From: Halorubrum sp. Hd13
Lineage (GTDB): Archaea > Halobacteriota > Halobacteria > Halobacteriales > Haloferacaceae
Assembly: GCF_002252755.1 (NCBI RefSeq)
Contig: NZ_NHOY01000050.1
Coordinates: 1-64,000 of the forward strand
Direction: 5' to 3'
Length of the DNA: 64,000 nucleotides
The notes beneath the pieces are model-generated. The model made no database searches, was not told where the DNA came from, and saw nothing but the letters and a program-made list of their open reading frames with translations. Made by a program: the position numbers and the translations under genes. Of the stretch, positions 13,235 to 15,060 are shown in pieces; position 1 is the stretch's first letter, and each line of letters opens with the position of its first letter.

Positions 13235-13921
13235 TCAGGCCCGCCGGAGCCGGTCCGCGCTCACGTCGACCGGCTCCGCGTAGTGGACGAGCGGCTCGCC
13301 CGCGGGGCGCTCGAAGCCGTTCGCCTCGAAGAGCGTGTTCTCTCGGAGATCGGCGGTTCCCTCTCGCAGCGTCCACGGCTCGTGGGCGATCTCGCCGCGG
13401 TAGAGGCGATTTCCGTCCGCGTAGAAGCGGTAGTTCTCGAGGAGGAACGCCGCGAGCGACCCCGGCTCGGCCGCGAACGGCTCGCCCGCCGGACCATAGG
13501 TGGCGTCGAAGCGGGCGTCCGTGACCCCCCGGTGCGTCCGACGGCTCCGGAACCGGACGGCCCCGTCGTCTCGACGGGTCGCGCTCATCTCGGCGCGGTA
13601 GTACGGCAGGGCGAACAGCCGCCGGGCGACCGCGACGCCGAGGCGGTCGTCGGCGTCGAGGTTGTAGAAATATACGCCGGGGCCGCTCGGCCCCTCGACG
13701 TACGTCCTGAGGTTGAGCTCCGGGAACGAGAGCCCGAAGGGGACGCCTCGCGGGCGGATGTCATCCATCACGAAGGCGACGACGCCGAGGTACGCGTCTC
13801 CGTCGTGCGTGGCGACCGTGAGCCGCTCGGGGAGCGTCTCGTCGACGACGGCCGGATCGACCGGCCAGTGGCAGAACAGCCCGTCGCGCCACGTCATCTC
13901 CAGCCAGCGGCGTCCGAACAT
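13235..13921 (-). CDS. DUF2071 (YqjF-type) protein
   Basis: A 228-residue protein starting MFGRRWLEMTWRDGLFCHWPVD, the typical opening of DUF2071/YqjF proteins (MxWxxLLFxHWPV). Later conserved parts include LNLRTYVEGPSGPGVYFYNLDAD and a C-terminal LVHYAEPVDV. The family is a beta-rich acetoacetate-decarboxylase-like fold, often encoded near stress genes; no enzymatic activity is established. It is 105 nt from the glutamate dehydrogenase end, in convergent orientation, and on the same strand as the damaged CDF gene upstream. Confidence 0.88.
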   Translation of the reverse strand: MFGRRWLEMTWRDGLFCHWPVDPAVVDETLPERLTVATHDGDAYLGVVAFVMDDIRPRGVPFGLSFPELNLRTYVEGPSGPGVYFYNLDADDRLGVAVARRLFALPYYRAEMSATRRDDGAVRFRSRRTHRGVTDARFDATYGPAGEPFAAEPGSLAAFLLENYRFYADGNRLYRGEIAHEPWTLREGTADLRENTLFEANGFERPAGEPLVHYAEPVDVSADRLRRA

Positions 13922-14060
13922 GCGATCGGTAGGGCCGCGAGGGGCAAAACCCGCACGACCGTCGAGGCGCGTTCCGGTTTCGGACGGGCGGTCCGAAGCG
14001 CGGTCGGATGCGTCCCCTCGCCGATCAGTCGCGCCGGTTCCCCGGATCGAGAGTGCGTCT

Positions 14061-14137
14061 GCTCCGTCGGGAGTCGCGTCGGTTCCGTCGGGAGTCGCGT
14101 CGGTTCCGTCGGGAATCGCGCCGGCTCCGTCTCCGAC
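14061..14137. repeat. 21-bp tandem repeat, three copies plus partial
   Basis: Copies at 14061-14081, 14082-14102 and 14103-14123 (consensus around TTCCGTCGGGAGTCGCGTCG, one to three changes) and a partial copy lie in the 253-bp gap between the DUF2071 gene and the damaged CDF gene. No gene is supported in that gap. Confidence 0.85.
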
Positions 14138-14174
14138 GGCGCCGCACACGGTCGTCGTCCCCGCCTGCGGGGGC

Positions 14175-15060
14175 TCAGGTACCGAGGTCGATCCCGTCGG
14201 GGGCGTCCTCGGCGTCCTTCCACTCGCCGAGTCCGGAGGGGTCGAGGTGAACGTGGACATCGCCGACGTCGTCCAGGTCGCGGAGGCCGGTGACGAGCGC
14301 CGTCTCGACCTCGTGGGCCTCGCGGAGCGTCATCCCGCCGTCGACCTCGACGTGGACCTCGACCTCCAGTTCGGTCCCGTCGTAATACACCGTCAAGTCG
14401 TGGACGCCTTCGACGGCCGGGGACCGCGCCGACGAGGTAGGTGACGTTCTCGCGACCGATCTCGACGCCCTGGTAGACGACGAGGACGCTGACCAGCGCG
14501 CCGGCGACCGGGTCGAGGACGGGGAACCCGAGCAGGGCGCCGAACACGCCGAACAGCGCCGCGACGGTGGTGTAGATGTCGTTGAGACAGTCGGCCGCGA
14601 GCGCGGTCAGCGCCGTCGACCCGAGGGTCGCGTTGACGCGCTCCGTGTACCAGTAGAGGAGGTACATGTCGATCAGCGCGAACAGCAGCGCCGCGACGAG
14701 GATCGGGCTGGCCGTGATATCCGGCGATCCGAGGAACTCCGAGACGGACTCCCGCAGCAGCAGCACGCCGAGCAGGACGATGACCGCACCGACGAACAGC
14801 GCCGTCAGCGGCTCGATCCGCTGGTGGCCGTGCGGGTGCGTCTCGTCGGCGGCGTCGTACCGGGAGCCCCCCCAAACGAACACGACCGCGCTGGCGACGA
14901 GGTCGGCGACCGAGTGCGCGGCGTCGGCGAGGAGCGCGACGCTGCCGAAGGCCAGTCCGGTCGCGCCGACGACCGCGATCTTCAGCGCGTTGCCGAAGAT
15001 GTTCACCCCTGCGGCCCGCTGGAAGCGGGCCTTCTCGCCGTCACCCCAGGGGCGCCACAT
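14175..15060 (-). pseudogene. Cation diffusion facilitator (CDF) transporter, frameshifted
   Basis: The membrane part reads from ATG 15060 (MWRPWGDGEKARFQ) through six helices, with HSVAD in TM2, HPHGHQR in the cytoplasmic loop and ADCLNDIYTT in TM5 (Asn where Zn-CDFs often have His), down to YLVGAVP at about 14425. The C-terminal ZT-dimer domain (VEGVHDLTVYYDGTELEVEV to GLGEWKDAEDAP, stop at 14175) is in another frame. Between YLVGAVP and VEGVHDL, CDFs normally have about 20 more residues, so a short deletion (not a multiple of three) rather than a single-base slip is likely. Read without correction, the first frame continues into an Arg-rich tail to 13894. Either a real recent pseudogene or an assembly error. 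Confidence 0.85.

Follow-up and report, generated by a model that had tools for sequence, protein, structure and literature searches.

Both CDF and P1B transporters have been described in haloarchaeal metal homeostasis (PMC3600143). The closest described counterparts of the locus analyzed here are CDF proteins of the FieF/YiiP type (PF01545 and PF16916), with which it shares a six-helix Cation_efflux domain, an acidic/His site in TM2 and TM5, and ZT_dimer sequence. An intact relative of the gene (P0002) matches FieF/YiiP PDB chains with E-values down to 7.6e-22. PMC6465983 further describes numerous putative CDF proteins of several bacterial groups that lack the C-terminal domain (CTD) and whose function is unclear.

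The window, i.e. the whole stretch of 64,000 nucleotides that was analyzed, belongs to the 83,363-base contig C25 in a Halorubrum draft genome (130 contigs, 3.81 Mb, given as 100% complete). The CDF gene lies on the minus strand from 15060 to 14175, and its two domains are found in different frames. The following features were assigned:

14428..15060, minus strand: CDF transmembrane domain (TMD) with complete Cation_efflux (PF01545), HxxxD in TM2 and DxxxD in TM5 (Pfam; FieF/YiiP alignment of relative P0002)
14415..14427, minus strand: 13-nt junction where intact relatives have a linker of 60 nt; 47 nt net are lost (comparison with relatives)
14175..14417, minus strand: ZT_dimer remainder (PF16916) in the +1 frame, without the domain start, to the stop at 14175 (Pfam)
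13894..14414, minus strand: off-frame Arg/Pro-rich tail read through by the TMD frame (ORF, 388 aa in all)
14047..14131, plus strand: 21-bp tandem repeat, about four copies, between the CDF and DUF2071 genes, not implicated in the break (sequence)

The TMD frame was read from ATG 15060 up to the junction and matched Cation_efflux positions 4-198 of 198 (Pfam, E = 5.3e-40). All six helices of this membrane domain are complete and in a single frame. In the alignment of P0002, whose letters are identical to those of the window at these positions, HSVAD (TM2) and DCLND (TM5) align with DSFAD and HYKSD of FieF, and the H/D metal-site residues are present in both helices. The predicted metal site within 14428-15060 (minus strand), HxxxD in TM2 and DxxxD in TM5, is reversed compared to the DxxxD/HxxxD order of FieF. 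The C-terminal ZT_dimer is not in the same frame as the membrane domain. An ORF from TTG 14396 matched ZT_dimer profile positions 31-77 of 78 (Pfam, E = 2.9e-8), and in a six-frame search of the genome the match began at position 16. In the intact relative L002, both domains share one frame and ZT_dimer was matched from 4 to 77 of 78. The Pfam frames and L002 thus confirm the initial annotation, which had placed the membrane and ZT-dimer domains in different frames; its view that the remainder of the gene is intact and keeps the CDF metal-site motifs agrees with the complete Cation_efflux domain and the HSVAD/DCLND motifs. TTG 14396 is the earliest ATG, GTG or TTG in the ZT_dimer frame and lies within the domain, for which reason separate translation of the ZT half as a complete domain was rejected. 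Behind the TMD, the first frame continues for about 174 off-frame residues and overlaps the first 28 bp of the DUF2071 gene, whose ATG is at 13921.

Intact relatives have 60 nt (20 codons) between the motifs YLVG and VEGV, whereas the window has 13 nt. The net loss of 47 nt is not divisible by three and throws the ZT_dimer tail out of frame; it also takes away the beginning of this domain. A small deletion, as opposed to a single-base homopolymer error, had been claimed for the junction, and the 47 nt missing relative to intact relatives bear this out. Residues are indeed absent there, but the count is nearer 16, together with the frame change, than the full 20 that had been estimated. The suggestion that the 21-bp array could promote slippage nearby was rejected: the array is located ~284 bp from the junction, past the CDF stop codon, and the linker alone accounts for the junction. 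The spacer from GEWK to DUF2071 measures 295 nt in the window and 95-220 nt in relatives (8 of 9 relative loci, those with a start found; two locus pairs are from the same genome). Part of the extra length of the spacer from the CDF stop to DUF2071 (13922-14174), compared with the relatives examined, comes from the array.

A full-length, single-frame CDF was detected in 50 of 52 Halorubrum genomes (the window's own genome counted), including G066 and G060 with just 64-65% identity. The exceptions are the genome of the window and G010 (Halorubrum sp. CBA1125), in which the linker is likewise broken, at nine consecutive C (L041/L009). The CBA1125 split is a separate event and looks like a single-base homopolymer matter; a sequencing error or a slippage-prone site may lie behind it. 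Among 110 ortholog loci (window included), which were drawn from two collections with some genomes present in both, the CDF was split at the window and CBA1125 loci only. By script, 106 of the 110 loci had one full-length match; the other four rows are the window (L001), L009 and L041 from one CBA1125 contig, and L032, which has an intact CDF plus a spurious additional match. In a synteny scan of the window and the remaining contig against G008 and G004 (47 CDS-like ORFs in 52,839 bases and 67 in 69,099 bases, respectively), the CDF was the sole ORF flagged as split against both. Multi-frame flags were raised for 9 of 47 ORFs with G008 and 12 of 67 with G004, where stop-to-stop ORFs often cross gene borders and some of the non-CDF flags could still be real. 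The full-length gene in 50 of 52 genomes and the exclusive flagging of the CDF against both syntenic relatives indicate that the split is beyond chance.

Comparison of the window with five relatives yielded dN values of 0.034-0.082 and dS values of 0.17-0.37 for the TMD half, and 0.014-0.062 and 0.25-0.62 for the ZT half (of nine relatives in the set, the first five were used with the window for the pairwise values). The dN and dS of both halves fell inside or close to the interval spanned by intact pairs, and their dN/dS was similar, in line with the very recent event that had been proposed. Since both halves are constrained like intact relatives, most of the divergence accrued under constraint, and the break is either recent or an artefact. 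Neither half contains a further lesion or a sign of relaxed constraint, as expected for a very recent break and equally for an artefact.

We consider it probable that a recent net deletion of 47 nt affected the linker and the beginning of the C-terminal domain in the only CDF exporter detected in the genome. The lost 47 nt, the changed frame, the lack of a start codon ahead of the ZT domain in its new frame and the intact copies in nearly all congeners together lead to a loss-of-function reading. Most likely, the allele is a fresh pseudogene or a strain-level loss-of-function allele, i.e. an ordinary gene disruption, and our best guess from the sequence is a loss or strong reduction of CDF function. 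This call draws solely on the anatomy of the gene, since further lesions or relaxed constraint were not seen. The product would consist of the six-helix membrane domain followed by the off-frame Arg-rich tail, would have no dimerisation domain, and may be unstable or poorly active. At E 0.001, the genome yielded no second match to Cation_efflux (PF01545) or ZT_dimer (PF16916); the search for another intact CDF, raised in the initial annotation, was thus negative and a compensating second copy was rejected. Five heavy-metal P1B-type ATPases scored above the TIGR01525 cut-off in the genome. Loss of the CDF might be tolerated because these ATPases and other systems deal with metals.

An assembly or sequencing artefact, with an intact gene in the living strain, is unlikely. 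The draft state of the genome (130 contigs), the GC-rich linker, the resemblance of the other split copy (CBA1125) to a one-base matter in a nine-C run, and the lack of decay in either half would all fit such an artefact. However, base-calling errors do not usually amount to 47 nt, other contigs carry neither a second copy nor an alternative allele, and none of the other ORFs compared along the contig received the split flag against both G008 and G004. With its complete Cation_efflux domain and intact H/D metal-site positions, the protein could also be a working CDF in which the membrane domain transports and the tail is dispensable, and CDF proteins that are devoid of a C-terminal domain by nature are reported in PMC6465983. 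We regard a working protein of this kind as quite improbable, as the frame runs on into about 174 off-frame residues and the tail is retained in 50 of 52 congeners; of the seven C-terminal deletion mutants of rice OsMTP8.1, just one conferred Mn tolerance (PMC4995437). It is barely conceivable that programmed +1 frameshifting joins both halves at the C-rich junction. The second half does lie in the +1 frame exactly at the C run and is still well conserved, but this break occurs in no other genome compared and the frame change is not conserved among relatives. A frameshift during translation would give an abnormal protein anyway, because the start of ZT_dimer is gone and the joined product would still be defective.

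As for the origin of the probable deletion, a replication error in the GC-rich linker may have led to loss at a short C-rich homology or to a short inverted template switch. The latter, a deletion with a short inverted patch instead of a plain deletion, is compatible with the loss-of-function reading, and we put it forward tentatively. Junction references were the loci matching the linker pattern (103 loci, 65 distinct sequences), of which five were used for simulations. In reverse-complement orientation, all 13 nt of the junction match linker sequence of L011 exactly, and 12 of the 13 match in L119 and L033. When compared with five close references, the inverted patch left 0-1 mismatches and a single 47-nt deletion 2-4, counts that refer to the linkers of relatives. 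Shuffled junctions equaled the fit of the inverted patch in just 0-8 of 100 trials. The template-switch model, however, has additional free parameters, and plain deletions simulated together with one substitution fitted equally well in 12-79 of 100 cases (6-nt minimum patch) or 0-39 of 100 cases (9 nt). With the more distant L059, a plain deletion requires one mismatch only. An inverted patch is therefore possible and fits the junction slightly better than a plain deletion, but the comparison is not decisive. That a single template-switch step turned the only detected CDF of the genome into a CTD-less exporter that still works is very unlikely. A deletion between CCGGCC repeats, which occur in several relatives, was also considered and rejected: by itself it would remove 45 nt and keep the frame, and a loss of 47 nt needs a further change.

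For annotation, this means that a working CDF exporter may be absent from the genome and should not be ascribed to it. Should the break be genuine, the strain offers a natural test of a haloarchaeon living without its only detected CDF, and of a CDF membrane domain minus its cytosolic half. Among the titles and abstracts listed on CDF C-terminal domains, MmCDF3 and Halorubrum CDF, there was no description of this allele.

A CDF remnant consisting of the ZT domain only was observed in three Halorubrum genomes (G012, G004 and G064), with 64% identity to the CDF C-terminus:

L155:6536-6802, plus strand: ZT-only CDF remnant
L154:1189-1455, plus strand: ZT-only CDF remnant
G064:C13:37291-37575: ZT-only CDF remnant

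In G012 and G004, the remnant adjoins genes for a NikR-like regulator and a NicO-like transporter (just below the Pfam cut-off) and is located downstream of an apparent transposase fragment (no Pfam match). It is probably a CDF truncated by an IS element.

In contrast to FieF/YiiP-type CDF, the window has its two domains in different frames and lacks the start of the ZT domain. Site A is made up of H-D (TM2) and D-D (TM5) in the window and of D-D and H-D in the aligned FieF chain. With the CTD-lacking CDF proteins of PMC6465983, the locus has in common a membrane domain without a usable C-terminal domain; it differs from them in its single lesion with an off-frame tail.

Recent prokaryotic pseudogenes and genes disrupted at the strain level are a known general kind. 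The gene of the window differs in that it is without further decay as yet and is known from one assembly. It resembles them in its single disabling lesion relative to the intact orthologs (50 of 52 genus genomes), in a gene that is otherwise intact and is intact in its congeners.
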